A DNA stretch of 38,417 nucleotides, from the IMG/VR virus record IMGVR_UViG_3300041409_001224, positions 1 to 38,417 of that record; one strand, given 5' to 3'. The stretch's first letter is position 1. Each line of letters opens with the position of its first letter. Below the pieces are notes generated by a model, which was not told the DNA's origin, made no database searches, and saw only the letters and a program-made list of their open reading frames with translations. The DNA comes from a virus. Shown here piece after piece: positions 1,300 through 22,668 of the stretch. The position numbers and the translations under genes were made by a program.

Positions 1300-1637
1300 T
1301 GAGCAACGCAGCTCTGCTCGAAGAATTCGCGCTCCGTTTCGACTCTGCGGAAGTGGCCGGGATGGTTGACACCGATGATCTCGAATCACTTGATGTCGCA
1401 CTCGCCGAAGTGAATCTCCAACTCGCGCGGCTCGCGGTGCAGCGCGCTGCTCTGTGGAAGCGTCACGACGACTTGATCACAGGCAAGCGCTACGTGCGCC
1501 GTCGGCTCGCAAGCAATTACATTGACCAGCATCAACTGCCGATTATTTTCTCCGCGATTCTCTATGACGTTGAATCCTCCCCGCCTTCTAAGAAAGCGGC
1601 GGGGATTCCTCAGAAAGATTCTCGCGCTGTTCTCTGA
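1299..1637 (+). CDS. Small hypothetical protein, 3' end replaced by IS insertion
   Basis: A helical protein of about 112 aa (AEVNLQLARLAVQRAALWKRHDDL could form a short coiled coil). ATG 1299 is preferred because AGGAGG lies eight bases upstream; ATG 1293 is too close. From residue 91 on, the frame reads into the right end of element A and stops at 1635-1637. Removing 1570..2828 restores GAT GAA CTC CCG ... TCA TGA, and the TGA overlaps the ATG of the gene at 2854. So the phage protein originally ended 9 codons past the insertion point, and the present C terminus is encoded by the IS. Function unknown. Confidence 0.65.
   Translation: MSNAALLEEFALRFDSAEVAGMVDTDDLESLDVALAEVNLQLARLAVQRAALWKRHDDLITGKRYVRRRLASNYIDQHQLPIIFSAILYDVESSPPSKKAAGIPQKDSRAVL
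1570..1611 (-). repeat. Right end (RE) hairpin of element A
   Basis: The RE stem CCCCGCC.../...GGCGGGG with flanking GAAT and ATTC is almost identical to the RE of element D (21467-21509). A shorter variant is present at the left edge of element C (5713-5747). It overlaps the coding end of the interrupted host gene. Confidence 0.85.
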
Positions 1638-2019
1638 CGTATTTCTTGATGGCTTCGAGAGTCACGCCGCCAACGGTGCTTGAGAAAGATGACGGCGACC
1701 AGAGATGCCCGCCCCACAATCGCCGTCGAAGTTGGGGAAATTCTTGAAAGATGCGCCTAGCAGATGCGCCTTTGAGTCTATGCAAAACTTGAGAGACAGA
1801 AAGCGAAGGCTTGAGCCTAATCAGCACATGGACGTGGTCTGTGTCCGTTTCGGTCTCAATAATCTCGCATTCTATCTGTGTTGCGATTTCGCGGATTATC
1901 TCTTTAACTCTATCGCCTATTTGACGAGTCAAAAGAGTATGCCTGTATTTCACGCACCAGACGAGATGGTACGTGAGGACGTGCTTGCTATGCGCTCCGC
2001 TGTGATGTTTCAAGCCCAT
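1588..2019 (-). CDS. tnpA: Y1 (HUH) transposase TnpA, IS200/IS605 family
   Basis: A 143-aa protein, the usual length for TnpA. The HUH motif is DHVHVL (His62, His64) and the catalytic tyrosine is Tyr127 in IKKYVREQ; LWGGHLWSPS and STVGG are typical family signatures. It would nick and join single-stranded element ends through a 5'-phosphotyrosine. The start overlaps the stop of the upstream HTH gene (TAATG), with GGAG eight bases upstream, so translation is coupled. It is closely similar to the copy at 21539..21970. All key residues are present, so it is probably active. Confidence 0.95.
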   Translation of the reverse strand: MGLKHHSGAHSKHVLTYHLVWCVKYRHTLLTRQIGDRVKEIIREIATQIECEIIETETDTDHVHVLIRLKPSLSVSQVLHRLKGASARRIFQEFPQLRRRLWGGHLWSPSSFSSTVGGVTLEAIKKYVREQRENLSEESPPLS

Positions 2020-2213
2020 TACTTTTGCTCCGGTTTGGCTGGCCCCCTTGAGGTCTTGCGCGTCTGCATCTTCTTGATGTCTGCGCTCGAAAAAATTAAA
2101 GCTTTGCCTATTTGCTGCGGCTCAAGCCCAAGCTCTCTTGCTATCTGCCGCACGCGCTGGGGGGTGACCCCCAGCATCTCGGCTGCGACTTCGGTTGTGA
2201 TTATCTGCGCCAC
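2019..2213 (-). CDS. Small HTH protein encoded in element A
   Basis: 64 aa from a GTG start at 2213, preceded by a strong AGGAGG nine bases upstream. TEVAAEMLGVTPQRVRQIAR is a clear helix-turn-helix, followed by GKALIFSSADIKKM, the excisionase/MerR-like wing. The tail is basic. It lies two bases after the cargo gene and overlaps tnpA (TAATG), forming a three-gene operon. A small HTH gene occupies the same place in element D, so it may repress or assist transposition. Function not shown. Confidence 0.75.
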   Translation of the reverse strand: MAQIITTEVAAEMLGVTPQRVRQIARELGLEPQQIGKALIFSSADIKKMQTRKTSRGPAKPEQK

Positions 2214-2214
2214 G

Positions 2215-2601
2215 TTAGTAGACCTCCTGACCGTCCGTGCGCTCGACTCTATACACGCGCTCGGTCTGACCGTCCATTTGGTCTTGAAGCAACTCGCTGC
2301 CCGCGATTTCCCGCTCGACTTCTTCAAGCGCATCGGCTTCAAATTCAACTTGTCTGTCGTAAAGCTCAAGCTTGGCTTTCGCATAACTCACTATTTGAAA
2401 CTTAACGACTTCGCTGTAAGACTCGCACCACGTTGCTTTATCAAGATATTGCTCGCACGCATCCGCATATTCATCGTCAACATCTATCGTGACGCTCTCA
2501 ATGCCCGATTCAACTTCCGCGTGTGGGATTTCGGACGCGAAGGACGGCCAATCTTCAACTGGATTGTAGCTGCTGTTTGCCATAATTTCGTAGCGTTTCA
2601 T
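2215..2601 (-). CDS. Cargo protein of element A, unknown function
   Basis: 128 aa, acidic and helical, starting at ATG 2601 with AAGGAG nine bases upstream. Stretches such as DDEYADACEQYLD and YDRQVEFEADALEEVEREI suggest a helical bundle. No membrane segment or recognisable catalytic motif. It is the first gene after the element promoter and is followed directly by the HTH gene. The gene at this position in element D (22184..22441) has no visible similarity, so this slot holds exchangeable cargo. Confidence 0.65.
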   Translation of the reverse strand: MKRYEIMANSSYNPVEDWPSFASEIPHAEVESGIESVTIDVDDEYADACEQYLDKATWCESYSEVVKFQIVSYAKAKLELYDRQVEFEADALEEVEREIAGSELLQDQMDGQTERVYRVERTDGQEVY

Positions 2602-2645
2602 TTTCGTTGTCTCCTTCAAAGTTTCAATTTCTTACTACGAGAGAG

Positions 2646-2674
2646 AGTTTCGCACAGAGAAAGCTACTTGTCAA
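2646..2674 (-). promoter_or_regulatory. Putative sigma-70-type promoter of element A operon
   Basis: On the minus strand a perfect -35 TTGACA (plus-strand 2669-2674) is followed after 17 bases by GAAACT, a weak -10. The region is AT-rich unlike the surrounding phage DNA. The corresponding promoter in element D is stronger, which supports the placement. Confidence 0.5.
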
Positions 2675-2744
2675 TAGTTATTTTCGCTCAAAGCAAATTA
2701 TTTATCATACTATTTCGTGTATTAAAACTAGAAAGGATTGGAGA

Positions 2745-2828
2745 CTTGAAGCGAACATTTGAAAGCATGTTCGCAGAGGACACAATTCCTCTGCGGCATA
2801 AATGCTCGCAGTCTCCTTGTGAGTTCTG
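2745..2828 (-). repeat. Structured left end (LE) of element A
   Basis: Plus-strand reading: stem GCGAACAT/ATGTTCGC (2751-2758, 2767-2774) around loop TTGAAAGC, then AGAGGA/TCCTCT, then a CATAAATG hairpin, then TCTCC...GAG and TTCTG next to the target ATGAA. Nearly identical to the LE at 22585..22668. The same architecture with changed stems occurs at 5154..5238 and 6311..6395. Confidence 0.85.
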
Positions 2829-2853: not shown

Positions 2854-3546
2854 ATGACGGCTGGCAGGCTGGATGATTACGTGACCGTGGCCGAGCGGAT
2901 CGCGGACTTTTACGAAGCATATCCGGCGGGAAGAATCCTCACGGCCATTCTTGAGCACGACCGCGAAGCTGGCTTTGTAGTTGTCCGTGCAGAGGTCTAC
3001 CGCACTGCGGAAGACACGATGCCGAGCGCGACCGGCCATGCCTATGAGATTCGCACCGAATCGCACGTTAACAAAACCTCCTATATCGAGAACGGAGAAA
3101 CTTCGGCTGTCGGACGTAGCCTCAAGCTCTTAGGTCTCGAAACAAAGCGCACGCCGGCATCAAAAGCGGCTTCAATTCCTAAAGGCAAGGCTCTCGAATC
3201 AGCTGTCATTCACGGCCTGCGGCGAGAGATCGAAAGCGTCTGCAAAGAACTCTATGCCAACGAAGAGACGCGGAAGACAGCGATGGCGCGCCTGTCGGGT
3301 AAGAGCGAGCAGGAGATGCAGGAAGCACTCGCCGCGCTCAACACGCAGCTTGCTAAGAAAAAAGAACGCGCCCGGCTGGTCGAGCACATGCAGGCATATT
3401 TCAAATTCCAGAAATGGGATGAGGGAGAGCAGGCGCGCTTTCTCCATAAGAAAAATTTGAGCAGCGAAAAGCTCTCAGAGCTATCGCTCGACGAACTAAT
3501 CGCACTCACTGATGAGTGCCCCATGCAGCAGCGAAAGCGGGCATGA
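2854..3546 (+). CDS. Putative ssDNA-annealing recombination protein (ERF/Rad52-like)
   Basis: 230 aa with AAGGAGG just upstream of ATG 2854. The first 100 residues read YVTVAERIADFYEAYP, RAEVYR, ATGHAYE, VNKTS and ENGETSAVGRSLKLLG. The conserved 'ENxETSAxGRxL' segment is typical of phage ERF/SAK-like and related single-strand-annealing or ssDNA-binding proteins. The C-terminal half is charged and helical, ending in a small three-helix region. The position just upstream of the replication initiator fits DNA recombination. I am confident of the conserved N-terminal family but less of the biochemical role. Confidence 0.6.
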   Translation: MTAGRLDDYVTVAERIADFYEAYPAGRILTAILEHDREAGFVVVRAEVYRTAEDTMPSATGHAYEIRTESHVNKTSYIENGETSAVGRSLKLLGLETKRTPASKAASIPKGKALESAVIHGLRREIESVCKELYANEETRKTAMARLSGKSEQEMQEALAALNTQLAKKKERARLVEHMQAYFKFQKWDEGEQARFLHKKNLSSEKLSELSLDELIALTDECPMQQRKRA

Positions 3547-3629: not shown

Positions 3630-4622
3630 GTGTTCAGCGTCTTCAACGGTCGCAGCCGCTCACTGGGTGAGACTTCGCGCAGAGAGGTTCACCTGCAAAT
3701 CTCCGTCGCTTTCAGGCGGTGCTTAAATTTATTCAAAGGGGCAAAGCTAGGCGTCTTCATGGCGATTGCACTTCACACGGATGAGCAGGGCTGGGCGTGG
3801 CCGCGCGTCTCGACGATTCGCAAAGAGACCGGCTACGAAGAGGACACCGTGCATAAGGCGCTCAATAAGCTGTGCGAGGTGAAGATCAAAGGTCGCCGCG
3901 TGCTCCTGCGCGCCAAAGAGCCGCCTGCGCACTACACGCCGGAGCCGCGTGATAAGAATTATGCGCGCAATTTTTACCTGATTTTCCCCTCTGATGCGGA
4001 GGTCGCCAAGTACGAAGGCAACGAAGATGATGAGCCTTCAGACTCAAACCTCCTCCGAAAAACCGTATCCGAAAAAACTGAGTCGGTTTTTTCGGATACG
4101 GAAAATTCGGATACGGTTTTTCGGAGTCAGTCTCTTATTACTAAAGAAGAACCAGTTTTAAAAGAAGAACCAATAAGAGACGAAGCAGAAACACACACAC
4201 ACGAAGTAGAACCAGCGCCGTCGCTCTTCGAGCTGACGGAAACACAAGATCGTGTGTGTGTGTCTGAAGACCTCCGGTTTGAAGACTATCTCGATTATGC
4301 GCGCCACACGCCGGGCTTCACGAATCCGGGCGGCTGGGCGATGAAGCACTATCCCTTGCGTGATGCGGACGTATTGGTGCGCGAGTGGCTCGAAAGCAAA
4401 ACGCCTGAAGCTATCAGCGAAGCTCGCGCGACTCCGGTGAATGAAAATCTGTACTTCGACGAGGCCGCGCATCGCGTGCGGACGTTGATGCAATACGGGC
4501 AAAAGCCGGAAGACATCATCGCCTCGATGCAGCTCGACGATGATGTGCGCCAGAGGTTGATCGAAAAATTTGTGAACGTGGAGGTGAGTGATGCGGAAAG
4601 CAGTCGAAGCAGTGTTGTCTGA
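3630..4622 (+). CDS. Phage replication initiator-like protein (HTH_36 domain)
   Basis: About 330 aa. Residues about 30-90 (LGVFMAIALHTDEQGWAWPR, VSTIRKETGYEEDTVHKALN, KL) form the helix-turn-helix found at the N terminus of many phage replication initiators and lambda O-like proteins. A low-complexity Glu/Ser/Thr-rich linker (about 135-200) is encoded by a repeat-rich DNA stretch (4053-4263). The C-terminal part is helical and acidic. The GTG at 3630 has GAAAGGA about 15 bases upstream, so the start is uncertain; ATG 3760 would cut into the domain. No helicase motif is seen. It overlaps the next gene by 32 bases. Confidence 0.6.
   Translation: MFSVFNGRSRSLGETSRREVHLQISVAFRRCLNLFKGAKLGVFMAIALHTDEQGWAWPRVSTIRKETGYEEDTVHKALNKLCEVKIKGRRVLLRAKEPPAHYTPEPRDKNYARNFYLIFPSDAEVAKYEGNEDDEPSDSNLLRKTVSEKTESVFSDTENSDTVFRSQSLITKEEPVLKEEPIRDEAETHTHEVEPAPSLFELTETQDRVCVSEDLRFEDYLDYARHTPGFTNPGGWAMKHYPLRDADVLVREWLESKTPEAISEARATPVNENLYFDEAAHRVRTLMQYGQKPEDIIASMQLDDDVRQRLIEKFVNVEVSDAESSRSSVV
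4053..4263. other. Candidate replication origin inside the initiator gene
   Basis: A dense repeat cluster within coding sequence. A perfect 21-bp inverted repeat (4053-4073 and 4106-4126) nests a 16-bp one (4063-4078 and 4086-4101), because the unit TTCGGATACGG occurs three times (one inverted). Then come an AT-rich stretch with the direct repeat AAAGAAGAACCA (4143-4154, 4161-4172) enclosed by TCTCTTATT/AATAAGAGA, and a 13-bp inverted repeat of CA/GT dinucleotides (4191-4203, 4251-4263). Iterons next to an AT-rich segment inside the initiator gene match the layout of the lambda origin within gene O. Function is inferred. Confidence 0.55.
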
Positions 4623-4908
4623 AGAGAGTGCGCGATACGCCGATTGGATGCAGGTCTTCGGCACGAATCGCGTCGAGGTTTTGAACGCCAGCGGATTTAT
4701 CACAGACCTGCCGGGCAAACCGCAAACGGAAGTTTATCTCTTGAACCTGAACGCGCTCTCGGAAGAGCAGAGCGAACGTCTCGTGCTCCATCTGGCCGAG
4801 AAATTTGACAGCAACGCGGTGGATGTTGCGGTTGAGCTTGAGTGCAAGGGTCTGCCGATTCTGGCTGAAGATGTCGCCCTGGTAATTGACCCGCGCTTTG
4901 TCGTTTGA
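4591..4908 (+). CDS. Hypothetical protein
   Basis: 105 aa starting at ATG 4591 with GGAGG nine bases upstream, inside the 3' end of the initiator gene (different frame). The composition is acidic; LLNLNALSEEQSERLVLHLA is a probable helix. No known motif. Its TGA (4906-4908) lies at the inferred left edge of element B. If 4905..5238 is removed, the frame becomes GTC GTA TGA, overlapping the ATG of the gene at 5239. Confidence 0.6.
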   Translation: MRKAVEAVLSEESARYADWMQVFGTNRVEVLNASGFITDLPGKPQTEVYLLNLNALSEEQSERLVLHLAEKFDSNAVDVAVELECKGLPILAEDVALVIDPRFVV

Positions 4909-4916
4909 GGAAAGCC

Positions 4917-5150
4917 ATGGTTGACGCAATTTACATGGACTTCGATTGTCCGAACTGCAAAGCGGTTGACGCGATTCATGTTCTCGCTGGCTACGAAGCG
5001 GATGGTGACGAGAACGGCGTGTCTTACTGTTTCGAGTTTGAAGTTGAATCTACCAAATGCGGCTGTGACTTGTACGAACTTGACTTGATTGACGAGATAC
5101 ACGACGAAGTTGCAAACGCATACCGCGAAACCTATCAGCCTATGTACTGA
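4917..5150 (+). CDS. Small Cys-containing protein, probable cargo of insertion B
   Basis: 77 aa, very acidic, with CPNC near the N terminus and KCGC near residue 48, a possible zinc ribbon (CxxC...CxC). ATG 4917 has GAGGAAAG upstream. It ends four bases before the LE of insertion B begins and reads opposite to the element's transposase orientation, as does the cargo of element C. Function unknown. Confidence 0.6.
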   Translation: MVDAIYMDFDCPNCKAVDAIHVLAGYEADGDENGVSYCFEFEVESTKCGCDLYELDLIDEIHDEVANAYRETYQPMY

Positions 5151-5153
5151 TAG

Positions 5154-5238
5154 TTGAGGCGGAATCTTGAAAGCGATTCCGCGATTGCTGCGGCTTCCTC
5201 CCCTGCATAAATGCAGAGGGGTCTCCGCCGAGGTTCTG
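5154..5238 (-). repeat. Structured left end copy, insertion B
   Basis: Same hairpin order and invariant loop TTGAAAGC as the left ends of elements A, C and D, but with different stem bases that still pair. It ends GAGGTTCTG directly before ATG 5239, so GAGG lies five bases from the start codon and can serve as ribosome site for the downstream gene. Confidence 0.8.
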
Positions 5239-5535
5239 ATGAAAGAAGCAACTTTTGAGTCTAAATGCAGGCGTTGCAACAACGTCGTATTGGGTGCAAA
5301 CACCTCCGACACGAACGCTGAAGAGCTTACACAAATCTTGATTTTCAACAAGCCGCGCCTACTCTTGTTTTGTCATACATGCGGAAAACCGTGGGCGAGC
5401 AACGTGCCATTTTGTCAGGAATGTTTACCGGCCACGCGGATGACGCCGCGCGAGATTTTAATCACGCTGGGCGAGCGCGGCGACTTCGACAAATTGGATC
5501 GTGAAATCGCTCGTCGAGCGGAGGCACAGCGATGA
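5239..5535 (+). CDS. Zinc-ribbon protein, unknown function
   Basis: 98 aa from ATG 5239, which is part of the target sequence of insertion B; the GAGG in the element end is the only ribosome site visible. Cysteine pairs CRRC, CHTC and CQEC indicate at least one zinc site. The C-terminal half (TPREILITLGERGDFDKLDR) is helical. It overlaps the next start (ATGA at 5532). Probably nucleic-acid or protein binding. Confidence 0.65.
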   Translation: MKEATFESKCRRCNNVVLGANTSDTNAEELTQILIFNKPRLLLFCHTCGKPWASNVPFCQECLPATRMTPREILITLGERGDFDKLDREIARRAEAQR

Positions 5536-5759
5536 TCTTTAATGGCGAGATTCCTATCGGATGGCCGGATGCTCTCGCGGGACTCGGCAGCACCGGCGAA
5601 CTCGATTTGATGTGCGATGCGATTGAAGCAGGCCGAGAGGATGAGGCGGAGGCGATTGTTGAGCGAGCGTATGAACGCGTTTATGCCAGATATGGCGCGG
5701 AGCTACTTGAGCTTGAAGCCTCCCGCGACCTAAAGGACGGAGATTCTTTTGAGTTATGA
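5532..5759 (+). CDS. Small acidic protein, 3' end altered by insertion C
   Basis: 75 aa, Glu-rich and helical (EAGREDEAEAIVERAYERVY). The last 15 residues are encoded by the right end of element C. Removing 5713..6395 changes the end to CAT GAA TGA, so the phage version would stop two codons past the insertion point, overlapping the gene at 6396. In the present sequence its TGA overlaps the ATG of the cargo gene at 5756 (ATGA). Function unknown. Confidence 0.6.
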   Translation: MIFNGEIPIGWPDALAGLGSTGELDLMCDAIEAGREDEAEAIVERAYERVYARYGAELLELEASRDLKDGDSFEL

Positions 5760-6328
5760 CTATCGCAATTCTTTTTGCTCGTCAAGATTCGATTTATAAG
5801 ACGCTGCCGGATTGTGACGTTTGGGACGCAGAGCGAGACGCACTTAAGTTTCAGGGCGGTTGTCCTGTCGTAGCCCATCCGCCGTGTCGTTTGTGGGGTA
5901 AGCTGTCGCACTTCTCTAGCGCACCCGAAAGCGAGAAGGCGTTGGCGATTTGGGCAGCTGAGCAAGTCAAGATGTGGGGCGGAGTATTGGAGCACCCTTA
6001 CTCGTCTAGGCTGTGGCCTGTTTGTGGGCTACCAGAACCGGGCAAGCGTGATTCTTTCGGCGGCTTTACGCTCGTCGTATCGCAATGGTGGTGGGGTCAC
6101 AAAGCTGACAAGCTCACGCGACTGTATGTCGTCGGGATTGAGCCAAAAGATTTGCCGCCTATCCCTTTTCGCTTAGGTGAGGCCGAGTACGTTGTATCAA
6201 CTACGACTCGACGCTCGAACAAGCGAGAGATCACTAAAGCAGAGCGAGAGCATACGCCTGTTGAGTTTGCCAAGTGGCTTGTTGACGTAGCGCGCAGAGC
6301 GTCAACGAGACTTGAGGCGGTTGCTTGA
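5756..6328 (+). CDS. Conserved phage protein with HPPCR motif, cargo of cassette C
   Basis: 190 aa. Segments SIYKTLPDCDVWDAERDA, PVVAHPPCRLWGKLSHF, GGVLEHPYSSRLWP, SQWWWGHKADK and the C-terminal ITKAEREHTPVEFAKWLVD match a conserved phage hypothetical family known to me from phages of Gram-negative bacteria. HPPCR recalls the PPC loop of cytosine methyltransferases, but no SAM-binding motif is seen, so I assign no activity. The start overlaps the upstream stop (ATGA) and the last codons lie in the first stem of the LE. It is complete, so the cassette carries an intact gene. Confidence 0.75.
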   Translation: MTIAILFARQDSIYKTLPDCDVWDAERDALKFQGGCPVVAHPPCRLWGKLSHFSSAPESEKALAIWAAEQVKMWGGVLEHPYSSRLWPVCGLPEPGKRDSFGGFTLVVSQWWWGHKADKLTRLYVVGIEPKDLPPIPFRLGEAEYVVSTTTRRSNKREITKAEREHTPVEFAKWLVDVARRASTRLEAVA

Positions 6329-6395
6329 AAGCACAACCGCAATGGCTACGCATTCCTCCCCGCGCTAAAGCGGCGGAGTCTCCTGCGAGGATTTG
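6311..6395 (-). repeat. Structured left end copy, cassette C
   Basis: Hairpin with invariant loop TTGAAAGC, a second stem CTCC..GGAG around GCTAAAGC, and TCTCCTGCGAGG before the target. GAGG (6387-6390) is five bases from the ATG at 6396. The 5' part doubles as coding sequence for the end of the cargo gene. Confidence 0.8.
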
Positions 6396-6983
6396 ATGAA
6401 TGAGCAGTCAACAGAGCAGAGCGACTTCCGTCCGCCCGTGTCCCTCGAATTTACTCCTGCGTCGCAGGAGAAGTTTGAGACCGGAGCAGGAGGCTGTCTT
6501 TACGCCACGATCAAGCGCGAAGGCATGCCCGCGACATCGGCAGTCCTCTGCACGGGGCGGCAGCCGCGCAGGCGCTGCGAGTTCTGTCAGGGCTGGTCTG
6601 TCGCTCTATGCGATTACCTCGTCGGAGGAGACTGCCCGAAGTGCAAGGGTAAGGGGCGACGCGGTCGCGGCGAATGTCACGCGTGCAGTGGCAAAGGTCT
6701 GGCCATGTGCAACCGGCGCATCTGTAAATCCTGCGTCGCGCACGTCGAGGGCGAGGACGTTGATTACTGCCCTGAGCATCGCGTGCTGGCAGGCTTCCCG
6801 CCACTCGTGAAGAAAGAGCCGTTCAAGTGGCTCGCAGCGGCGCGGACAGGCGGCGCATGTGTGCATCGCGGCTGTCCGGTCGAAGTCAAAGCGGGAGAGC
6901 GTGCCCTCTATTTCTCGAAACGTCAACGTGTGATGTGCGAAGCATGCGGAGAGGCTTACGAAAAACTACGGAGCGCGCAATGA
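6396..6983 (+). CDS. Multi-zinc-finger protein with DnaJ-type CxxCxGxG repeats
   Basis: 195 aa from ATG 6396 (TTG 6393 is an alternative within the element end). It has a Cys-rich core with CEFC, CPKCKGKG, CHACSGKG, CNRRICKSC and a later CVHRGC...CEAC, so several zinc sites. CxxCxGxG pairs resemble the DnaJ central zinc finger, but no J domain is present. It probably binds nucleic acid or proteins. It overlaps the next gene by four bases (ATGA). Confidence 0.7.
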   Translation: MNEQSTEQSDFRPPVSLEFTPASQEKFETGAGGCLYATIKREGMPATSAVLCTGRQPRRRCEFCQGWSVALCDYLVGGDCPKCKGKGRRGRGECHACSGKGLAMCNRRICKSCVAHVEGEDVDYCPEHRVLAGFPPLVKKEPFKWLAAARTGGACVHRGCPVEVKAGERALYFSKRQRVMCEACGEAYEKLRSAQ

Positions 6984-19930: not shown

Positions 19931-21510
19931 TGGACTTTTTATCACTGAATCTGGAGTTGCCGACATTCGCGCAGCTTCGCCACGAACAGGCAGCAGCTCG
20001 CGCCAAACTTGAGCGCCGCGAGAAACGACGTGCCCTCAGGCGCTCCTATGACGCCGCGCGCGTCGACCGATTGAGTCGCGACTTCACAGTCGTCAACACC
20101 TCGAATAATTTCGAGCTGCGCCGCTCGCTCAGGTTTCTCCGCGCCCGCTCGCGCGACCTGGCGCGCAATAATGACTACGTCAAAAAGTTTCTCTCGATGG
20201 TCAGAAACAACGTGGCTGGCCCGACGGGCATGAAGTTACAGGTGAGAGCGCGCGATAAAAATGGTGAGCTTGATCAGGTCTTGAATCGCACGATTGAAAC
20301 TGCGTGGAAGCAGTGGTGCCACAAGGAGAACGCCTCCCTGAACGGGAAGCTTTCGTGGACGGCGATTCAGCGCAAGCATATCAATGCGATCGCGCGCGAC
20401 GGTGAAAGCCTCTTACGTATCTGCGACGCCGATAATCCTTTTGGCTTCTCTCTGAAGTTTTACAGTGCCGACTGGCTCGACGAGACTTTCAACGAAAGAC
20501 TCCCGAACGGCAACCGCGTGATCATGTCGGTTGAACTAGACGAGAACGACAGGCCGGTCGCTTATCATTTGACCCCGCCTCCGTCCGATTACCTCTTTCT
20601 CGATAGAGACGCGAAGGCCAACTGGCGCACGCGCGTGCCCGCTGAAGAGATCATTCACAGTTTTCTGATGGATGATGAGAACTCCGACGATGACACGCAG
20701 GTGAGGGGCGTGCCCTGGATACACACGGCCATCAAGCGGCTGAAGATCTTGGGCGCATACGAAGAGGCGGAGTTGGTCGCGGCGCGCGTCGGTGCCTGCA
20801 AGATGGGATTTTTCAAGCAAGAAACGCCCGAAGAGGAAGAATATACGGGCGAAGAGGATGATGAAGAGGACAGGTCTAATCCGAATCTGCCGCATAATGC
20901 CGAGGCCGGACAGTTCGACCTCATCCCAGCGGGATATACTTTCGAATCATACGATCCAACGCACCCGAACACGAGCTATCCGTCTTTTATCAAGGGCGTT
21001 TTGCGCGGCATCGCCGCCGGCATGGACGTAACCTATTTCTCGTTGGCCGAAGACCTCGAAGGCGTCAATTATTCTTCGGCGCGGATCGGCCTGCTTTCAG
21101 AGCGCGACACTTGGCGCGGTCTCCAGCATTTTCAGATCGAGGAACTGCAAAGGCGCGTCTTTCTCGCCTGGCTCCGCTCGGCCATGATGACCGGCGCGGT
21201 AAATATCCGTGTGGCCGATTACAAACGGCTCCAGGAACCTCATTTCCAACCGCGCGGCTGGCGCTGGATTGACCCCTACAAGGAGATTCAGGCGGCCAAG
21301 ATGGCAGTCGAGGAGGGCTTTGATGCCCGCACTGATGTGATCGGTGAGCAGGGCGGCGATTTCGAAGAGAAAATGACCACTCTGGCACACGAGCAAAAGG
21401 TCATCAAAGAGAAGGGCGTTGTGCTCGGCGCGAAGGATTCAAAAGCCTCTGCGCCACCCGCGGCTGTTGAATCCTCCCCGCCTTCTAAGAAAGCGGCGGG
21501 GATTCCTTAG
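19930..21510 (+). CDS. Portal protein, C terminus replaced by element D
   Basis: 526 aa, lambda GpB-type portal: LRRSLRFLRARSRDLARNND, VKKFLSMVRNNVAGPTG, DGESLLRI, YHLTPP, EEIIHSF, VRGVPWIHTAIKRLKILGAY, YSSARIGLLSERDTW and GWRWIDPYKEI are family hallmarks. It forms the 12-fold DNA entry channel. The last 12 residues (VESSPPSKKAAGIP) come from the IS. With 21467..22668 removed, the frame reads DEKEADGQKPSRK and a stop at 22707-22709. So function is likely retained with a changed C-terminal tail. Confidence 0.9.
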   Translation: MDFLSLNLELPTFAQLRHEQAAARAKLERREKRRALRRSYDAARVDRLSRDFTVVNTSNNFELRRSLRFLRARSRDLARNNDYVKKFLSMVRNNVAGPTGMKLQVRARDKNGELDQVLNRTIETAWKQWCHKENASLNGKLSWTAIQRKHINAIARDGESLLRICDADNPFGFSLKFYSADWLDETFNERLPNGNRVIMSVELDENDRPVAYHLTPPPSDYLFLDRDAKANWRTRVPAEEIIHSFLMDDENSDDDTQVRGVPWIHTAIKRLKILGAYEEAELVAARVGACKMGFFKQETPEEEEYTGEEDDEEDRSNPNLPHNAEAGQFDLIPAGYTFESYDPTHPNTSYPSFIKGVLRGIAAGMDVTYFSLAEDLEGVNYSSARIGLLSERDTWRGLQHFQIEELQRRVFLAWLRSAMMTGAVNIRVADYKRLQEPHFQPRGWRWIDPYKEIQAAKMAVEEGFDARTDVIGEQGGDFEEKMTTLAHEQKVIKEKGVVLGAKDSKASAPPAAVESSPPSKKAAGIP

Positions 21511-21538
21511 AAGGCGGTCGGGAGTTGGATTTGAAAAC

Positions 21539-21970
21539 TTACGGTTCGACGCTTGGGAGTTCGGTCATTTCCGCCCGTTGTTCTTCAACGTATTTCTTGA
21601 CCTTATCCAACGTCGTGCCGCCTACGGTGCTTGAAAACTTAGACGGAGACCAGAGATGCCCGCCCCACAAACGGCGACGGAGTGACGGGAACTCTCGAAA
21701 GATTCTATAGGCACTGCCGCCTTTGAATCTGTGAAGCACACTTGAAACTGTGTGCGTTGGCTTTAACCTGCAAAGGACATGGACGTGGTCGGTATCACAC
21801 TCGACGGCAATTATTTCAACGTCAATCGCTACCGCGATTTCGTGCAGGACTGCTTTAACCCTGTCACCAATCTCGCGGGTCAAGAGCGTGTGGCGATACT
21901 TGACGCACCAGCACAGGTGATAGTTCAGAACGTGCTTGCCGTGTGCGCTACTCGCGTGCTTCTGTCTCAC
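21539..21970 (-). CDS. tnpA: Y1 (HUH) transposase TnpA, IS200/IS605 family
   Basis: 143 aa from GTG 21970. HUH residues are His62 and His64 in DHVHVL; Tyr127 in VKKYVEEQ is the nucleophile; LWGGHLWSPS and STVGG are conserved. The sequence is similar to, but clearly diverged from, the copy at 1588..2019, so the two elements are not a recent duplication. It starts seven bases after the HTH gene's stop. Confidence 0.94.
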   Translation of the reverse strand: MRQKHASSAHGKHVLNYHLCWCVKYRHTLLTREIGDRVKAVLHEIAVAIDVEIIAVECDTDHVHVLCRLKPTHTVSSVLHRFKGGSAYRIFREFPSLRRRLWGGHLWSPSKFSSTVGGTTLDKVKKYVEEQRAEMTELPSVEP

Positions 21971-21977
21971 GTTACTT

Positions 21978-22187
21978 CTACCCTTTCTTTGCAGGCCGTC
22001 CGGCCTTTGGACGCTCGCGCATTTTCTCTAAATCTTTCCGCCGAATCGCCCAACCGGAAAGACCTTTTACGATTTCGCCCACAGGTTGAGCCGGAAGTTT
22101 TCCCGACTCAACCATTTTTTGCACCGAACTTTTTGTTAATCCAAGTTCGAGTGCGGCGGCTTGCACGCTCAGAAGTTCGTCTTTCAC
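21978..22187 (-). CDS. Small HTH protein encoded in element D
   Basis: 69 aa from GTG 22187, overlapping the cargo stop (GTGA). LSVQAAALELGLTKSSVQKM and a following GWAIRRKDLEKM are an excisionase-type HTH and wing. Basic Lys/Arg-rich tail. It is only distantly similar to the HTH protein of element A, but holds the same operon position. Confidence 0.72.
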   Translation of the reverse strand: MKDELLSVQAAALELGLTKSSVQKMVESGKLPAQPVGEIVKGLSGWAIRRKDLEKMRERPKAGRPAKKG

Positions 22188-22441
22188 TGTTCGCCCTCCA
22201 TGTGCGATTCGATAATTTCACGTACAACGCGAAGCGTCTCAGCCCTCGCATCAGAAGGCAGCAGTTCGCGCATACTCTCAATCGCGCCTTGCTCGCCAAA
22301 GCCGCTCGTCATTGTTTGAGTGATTGTGTCGCCGTTTTCTCGTTCCCAAGCGAGTTCGTATGTCCGCGCTCCCACCCAGCCCTCAGGAGTTTCAACTGTG
22401 CCGTTTTCAATGTCGTTAAAGAATTTGTCAAGGTCTGTCAT
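22184..22441 (-). CDS. Cargo protein of element D, unknown function
   Basis: 85 aa from ATG 22441 with AAGGAG upstream. Acidic N terminus, a beta-like core (VGARTYELAWERENGDTITQ) and a helical C terminus (AETLRVVREIIESHM). No known motif. No visible similarity to the cargo protein of element A. Confidence 0.65.
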   Translation of the reverse strand: MTDLDKFFNDIENGTVETPEGWVGARTYELAWERENGDTITQTMTSGFGEQGAIESMRELLPSDARAETLRVVREIIESHMEGEQ

Positions 22442-22482
22442 CGTCTTTATCTCCTTCTCAAATTCGTTATTTCTAACGTAAG

Positions 22483-22542
22483 AGAATATTACGCGACTAA
22501 AGAATATTTGTCAACACTTATTTTCTCTAATCAGAGAATATT
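22483..22542 (-). promoter_or_regulatory. Sigma-70 promoter with repeated AGAATATT motifs
   Basis: On the minus strand TTGACA (plus 22509-22514), a 17-base spacer and TAATAT (plus 22486-22491) form a near-consensus promoter for the cargo-HTH-tnpA operon. The plus-strand motif AGAATATT occurs at 22483, 22501 and 22535, flanking and overlapping the -10 and -35, so it is a likely operator for the element's HTH protein. Confidence 0.7.
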
Positions 22543-22584
22543 TCACACACTATTTCGTGTATTCAAACTAGAAAGGATTGGAGG

Positions 22585-22668
22585 CTTGAGGCGAACATTT
22601 GAAAGCATGTTCGCAGAGGACACAATTCCTCTGCGACATAAATGCTCGCAGTCTCCTTGTGAGTTCTG
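22585..22668 (-). repeat. Structured left end (LE) of element D
   Basis: Stem GCGAACAT/ATGTTCGC (22591-22598, 22607-22614) with loop TTGAAAGC, then the same hairpin series as element A, ending TTCTG before ATGAA. Nearly identical to 2745..2828. Confidence 0.85.

Follow-up and report, generated by a model that had tools for sequence, protein, structure and literature searches.

A probable IS200/IS605-type mobile insertion cassette carrying a single phage gene

Mobile insertion cassettes (MICs), such as MIC231 of Bacillus cereus and mic-qnrD, consist of transposon ends around a non-transposase gene, with no transposase inside and movement in trans expected (PMC3913671). Cassette C, a segment of the 38,417-bp virus record that we call the window, has the same arrangement and meets the MIC criterion that the ends of one IS type surround a non-transposase gene. 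However, MIC231 and mic-qnrD have inverted repeats and usually target duplications (PMC3913671), whereas C lies in phage DNA and has the folded, asymmetric single-strand ends of Y1-type elements. Y1 elements are not known to make a target duplication; thus, this feature of MICs is inapplicable to C. With IS608 and ISDra2 (PMC5934647), C shares a Y1 TnpA in its lineage, subterminal hairpins, a right-end guide GAAT with cleavage site TCAA, and an insertion, inferred for C, 3' of a short target that is retained at the left. It differs from them in its target (TTCAT, not TTAC or TTGAT), in its two-hairpin left end, and in the single phage gene that replaces tnpA/tnpB. Y1 enzymes acting in trans are known or presumed to move the Y1-related REP and REPIN sequences, as is inferred for C, but REP and REPIN sequences are gene-less (PMC8266576, PMC3116915). 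Integron gene cassettes are promoterless single genes whose 3' end bears a recombination site formed by a folded single strand, and C is alike in principle. The integron system is one of IntI and attC (PMC8876359), whereas C has two IS200/IS605 ends, for which TnpA-type chemistry is inferred.

Table 1. Features of the C locus, related elements of the window, and sister cassettes from other records
Feature	Position in window	Strand	Size	Details
Autonomous element A	1570-2828	-	1259 bp	tnpA 1588-2019 (Y1_Tnp E=5e-44), HTH gene, small ORF
Small Cys-rich gene	4917-5150	+		stop abuts left end B; cassette-like layout
Left end B	5155-5238	-		at ATGAA start codon 5239
Upstream gene of C	5532-5759	+		final codons come from C right end; stop overlaps HPPCR start (ATGA)
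Cassette C	5713-6395	- (orientation of ends; passenger on opposite strand)	683 bp	between two inferred TnpA cleavage points
C right end	5713-5746	-		guide GAAT (5743-5746), imperfect hairpin, cleavage site TTCAA (5713-5717)
Passenger gene HPPCR	5756-6328	+	190 aa	PHROG 12600, function unknown in PHROG
C left end	6313-6395	-		outer stem CGCA/TGCG, stem 1, stem 2 with loop GCTTTCAA; with target TTCAT, 6313-6400
Shine-Dalgarno-like GAGG from C left end	6387-6390	+		5 nt ahead of ATG 6396; basis: sequence
Target/left cleavage site TTCAT of C	6396-6400	-		plus strand ATGAA, start codon of downstream gene
Downstream gene of C	6396-6983	+		its ATGAA start is the target of C
Autonomous element D	21467-22668	-	1202 bp	tnpA 21539-21970 (Y1_Tnp E=6e-38), HTH gene, small ORF
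Sister cassette G001/L059			401 bp	both ends, no tnpA; inside C5-methylase (Dcm-type) gene
Sister cassette L088 (record G168)			311 bp	both ends, no tnpA
Sister cassette L025			486 bp	two small genes; both ends, no tnpA
Sister cassette L055			501 bp	two small genes; both ends, no tnpA
Sister cassette L090			643 bp	both ends, no tnpA; found independently in Acidobacteria genome

Neither tnpA nor tnpB was seen inside C, where HPPCR is the sole gene between the ends. The criterion for an autonomous IS200/IS605 element, a Y1 TnpA, is unmet; because C has no TnpA of its own, we filed it as a non-autonomous IS200/IS605 derivative. The reading frame of the upstream gene continues across the right end to a stop in the ATGA (5756-5759) that also holds the HPPCR start; this frame differs from that at the sister cassettes L055, L088, and L090. 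The HPPCR stop lies inside the left end. The flanks joined in silico read ...CTT GAG C/AT GAA TGA (the slash marks the join), over the ATG at 6396. A preliminary description, made from the sequence alone, had placed the cassette at 5713-6395, with a lone HPPCR gene on the opposite strand, its start overlapping the upstream stop (ATGA 5756) and its stop within the left end, and all of this held, the gene lying opposite to the tnpA genes of A and D. Its claim that excision rebuilds CAT GAA TGA overlapping the ATG at 6396 held for the computed flank junction, a natural empty site not having been found, and its claim that both ends match those of the tnpA elements held strongly for the left end and less so, as a motif, for the right. 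The comparison that it proposed, of phages with and without the cassette, yielded no syntenic phage when we searched with the downstream gene or the recombination gene at 2854-3546, and no empty site among relatives when we searched with these genes or the terminase. The closest relative by terminase search (75% identity, 14.9 kb) begins downstream of the C locus, and C was seen in one copy only in everything searched.

The left end was assessed with a covariance model (R1) made from 10 other left ends, B and C excluded. On the window, R1 identified exactly four left ends, those of A, D, B, and C, with the next match at E=0.9; C scored 87.1 bits (E=9e-21) and B 92.2 bits (E=4e-22), both for the whole window. 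Across 18 left ends, 15 of the 16 stem pairs show a compensatory change and 93% of the cells are paired, values that none of 500 shuffles reached in either case. C therefore ends, at the left, in a genuine IS200/IS605-type structure common to tnpA-bearing elements. The sequences of its ends are not close to those of A or D.

The right end (5746 to 5713, GAATCTCCGTCCTTTAGGTCGCGGGAGGCTTCAA) is weak as a motif: its score of 19.5 bits is not significant over the whole window, where the mean null maximum is 20.3. A window-wide scan for the right-end motif did not single out C, which stood out only by the test restricted to the interior, by its guide pairing, and by its match to L090. Approximately 0.011 chance matches to the motif are expected in the 700-nt interior, and the right ends of C and L090 are of equal length and identical at 26 of 34 positions. 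The guide GAAT pairs with the TCAA of the cleavage site TTCAA, a combination that is also the right guide/cleavage pair of IS608 (PMC5934647), and guide base 4 forms a Watson-Crick pair (T-A, G-C, or A-T) with the last cleavage base in all 15 elements, C included. The right end lies 9 nt ahead of the passenger start, and its hairpin (-5.9 kcal/mol) is the least stable of the set. The assignment is strengthened by the L090 match, the guide/cleavage pair, and the position near the passenger start.

Pattern scans of viral contigs and genomes, the matches of which were then read individually, produced five further cassettes that have both ends, no tnpA between them, and differing small genes on the strand opposite the ends. 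Three of the sequences that carry them are viral records and two are Acidobacteriota (Blastocatellia) genomes; the set is small, and all of it comes from environmental sequence. Each is laid out as in C, with the right end shortly ahead of a start codon and the left end over or beside a stop. G001 and L088 carry different genes but have the same 34-base sequence at their right ends. The G001 cassette is one clean insertion: it splits the Dcm-type gene into a preceding piece covering PF00145 positions 1-36 and a following piece covering 40-169, and joining the flanks restores a single frame exactly (...DTDARRVL-D-KNFPRAAKLADVREAG...). Such exact restoration after insertion 3' of a fixed target, seen for G001, is consistent with the data for A, D, C, L055, L088, and L090. 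No tnpA was found in the records of G001 and G168/L088, which may be incomplete, and tnpA is present in records G002 and G003. G001 carries a homolog (48%) of the window gene at 4588-4908 and is therefore probably a distant relative of the window's phage. For the passenger proteins, no functional family was found beyond zinc-ribbon-like matches.

Most exact left-end pattern matches in the genome collection (L039-L050, L052-L054, L057, and L058) were rejected as chance, as were the viral-contig candidates L023 and L026. The G001 phage has a weaker second left end (L064 869-933, E=1.5e-8) that is apparently decayed. At L025 (around 1685-1770) and L114, a truncated second left end in the opposite orientation directly abuts the cassette target, an arrangement suggestive of one element inserted into another. 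Gene-less or decayed copies of 300-370 bp occur in Blastocatellia genomes; copies of this size with both ends and the target TTTAT were seen at L099, L105, L106, and L107 (genomes G006 and G056), where the left-end guide region reads GAAGAC in place of GGAGAC, consistent with target pairing there.

A fold model of the HPPCR protein (pLDDT 75, moderate confidence) resembles C5-cytosine methyltransferases, with a best Foldseek E of 0.01 and a best Z of 7.6, to M.HhaI, which is middling. The HPPC motif is conserved among homologs and fits this resemblance; C5-cytosine methyltransferases have a Rossmann methyltransferase fold with a motif IV Pro-Cys. No Pfam match was found. A relationship to DNA methyltransferases is possible on this model-based prediction, and that the protein acts as a small methyltransferase is conjecture. 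Homologs with 50-71% identity occur in five viral contigs, in which neither a left end nor tnpA was found, and weaker ones occur in phages including ssDNA microviruses. Because homologs occur without such ends, the HPPCR gene is not tied to the cassette. The preliminary description had suggested surveying HPPCR homologs for nearby IS200/605 ends, and none carry them in other phages; it would have been refuted by most homologs lying in the same gene order without ends, an outcome neither met nor excluded, as the searches returned no homolog with these neighbors. A search of 162 Blastocatellia genomes, which had no positive control there, gave no HPPCR gene. Distant homologs in small phage records (MK765587, PP754850, MH572337; two named microviruses) suggest a widely travelling gene.

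The tnpA genes of A and D look intact. In both elements the left end lies near TTCAT, the right end has the arrangement GAATCCCC-hairpin-GGGGAGGATTCAA, and joining the flanks in silico gives uninterrupted upstream reading frames. Element A, and likewise D, could be the source of TnpA for C, with activity in trans being inferred. For B no right end was found, the best candidate scoring 11.9 bits, and B is therefore a relic or half element. Upstream of tnpA, and on the same strand, A and D (1588-2619 and 21539-22441), L008, and L011 have two extra genes, a variable small ORF and a DNA-binding HTH-like gene, an addition that is unusual for IS200/IS605.

We read C as a non-autonomous gene cassette on the strength of the statistical support for its left end, the pairing of guide and cleavage site at its right end, and the five tnpA-less sisters, one of them a clean insertion. 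It is likely an IS200/IS605-type MIC on which a TnpA such as that of A or D probably acts in trans, although movement of C is inferred. The earlier proposal of a non-autonomous, gene-mobilizing cassette is thus supported, with mobilization by the TnpA of A or D remaining an inference. In the mechanism we propose, a TnpA supplied in trans (by A, D, or the host) would bind the folded ends in single-stranded DNA, and the cassette would be excised as a circle, the donor being resealed at C/ATGAATGA. The circle would reinsert 3' of a TTCAT, often at the start codon of the next gene in phage operons, leaving the cassette between two genes, the upstream one of which would still stop. The passenger, which has no obvious promoter of its own, would be expressed as part of the operon transcript, with GAGG from the left end serving as a new Shine-Dalgarno sequence before the next ATG.

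Three alternatives were considered. The first is that C is a relic, its ends deriving from a former tnpA element or from two old insertions, with the gene having arrived by recombination and the unit never moving whole. The low stability of the C right-end hairpin, the occurrence of B as a left end without a right end, and the gene-less or decayed copies in Blastocatellia genomes favor this idea, but the same tight layout recurs in five other cassettes, guide/cleavage pairing is kept in C, and the G001 cassette is a single clean insertion; we regard it as unlikely. The second, that the right end is coincidental and the left end a solo relic beside a native phage gene, draws on the fact that chance matches elsewhere in the window also attain 19.5 bits; however, the low chance expectation in the interior, even before counting the guide pairing, the L090 match, and the proximity to the start codon, makes this very improbable. 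The third, in which the left ends would be not transposon ends but structures that regulate phage operons at the RNA level, as attenuators or ribosome-binding regions, is suggested by the many left ends that directly precede start codons and carry GAGG, but is all but ruled out by the same structure beginning the tnpA elements A, D, L008, and L011, by the G001 copy within a methylase gene, and by gene-free copies in genomes.

The target TTCAT is ATGAA on the plus strand. Of 13 independent left ends, 7 (B, C, L008, L055, L056, L088, and L067) have a target that serves as a gene's start codon, whereas the share among all ATGAA sites is 8.6% by a strict count or 16.7% by a lenient one (P=4e-5 or 0.002). 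This statistic is post hoc and rests on a small set, and is a lead only. The joined flanks of L055, L088, and L090 are ATGA stop/start overlaps, and the plus-strand tip of the element is TTGAA, GTGAA, or ATGAA, so that the upstream TGA stop survives insertion at these overlaps. By sequence, GAGG from the left end lies ca. 5 nt ahead of the next ATG in most cases. Docking might be favored by selection or targeting, an inference limited by the set described. In phage contigs, further IS200/IS605-like left ends with TCAT as their target (L069, L073/L084, L077, L081, L089, L068/L070/L078, L065, and L074) also directly precede ATGA... starts, and docking may extend beyond C-type elements.

A bolder reading, which we do not hold to be the more probable one, is that phages of Blastocatellia-type hosts share a Y1-transposase gene-cassette system, in which promoterless cassettes of one or two genes would dock at ATGAA starts, best at ATGA overlaps, the right-end tip (N)TGAA keeping the upstream stop and the left end giving the next gene its Shine-Dalgarno sequence. 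If true, phages would have their own equivalent of integron cassettes, built from folded single-strand ends. How small accessory genes move singly between packed phage operons, with neighbors unbroken, is an open question, and a folding cassette, recognized by a phage-borne TnpA, that lands at stop/start junctions with both neighbors translated would be a concrete route. Genes other than tnpB join the known cargo of IS200/IS605 ends, and the same packaging of other small genes in related phages suggests single-gene trade among phages. No description of IS200/IS605-type gene cassettes was found in the full-text literature searched, which is weak evidence of novelty since most subscription papers lay outside that search.

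By record titles, genome-borne left ends are confined to one class of Acidobacteriota, Blastocatellia; this class is likely to be the host range. Within the window, the gene at 3630-4622 contains an inverted repeat at 4053-4126 (CTCCGAAAAACCGTATCCGAA), with perfect 21-bp arms separated by a 32-nt spacer. The 353-kb viral record IMGVR_UViG_3300028735_000003 (L071, L075, L079, L083, L085, and L087) has at least seven near-identical left ends, several of which are followed by remnants of an apparent TnpB-type gene.
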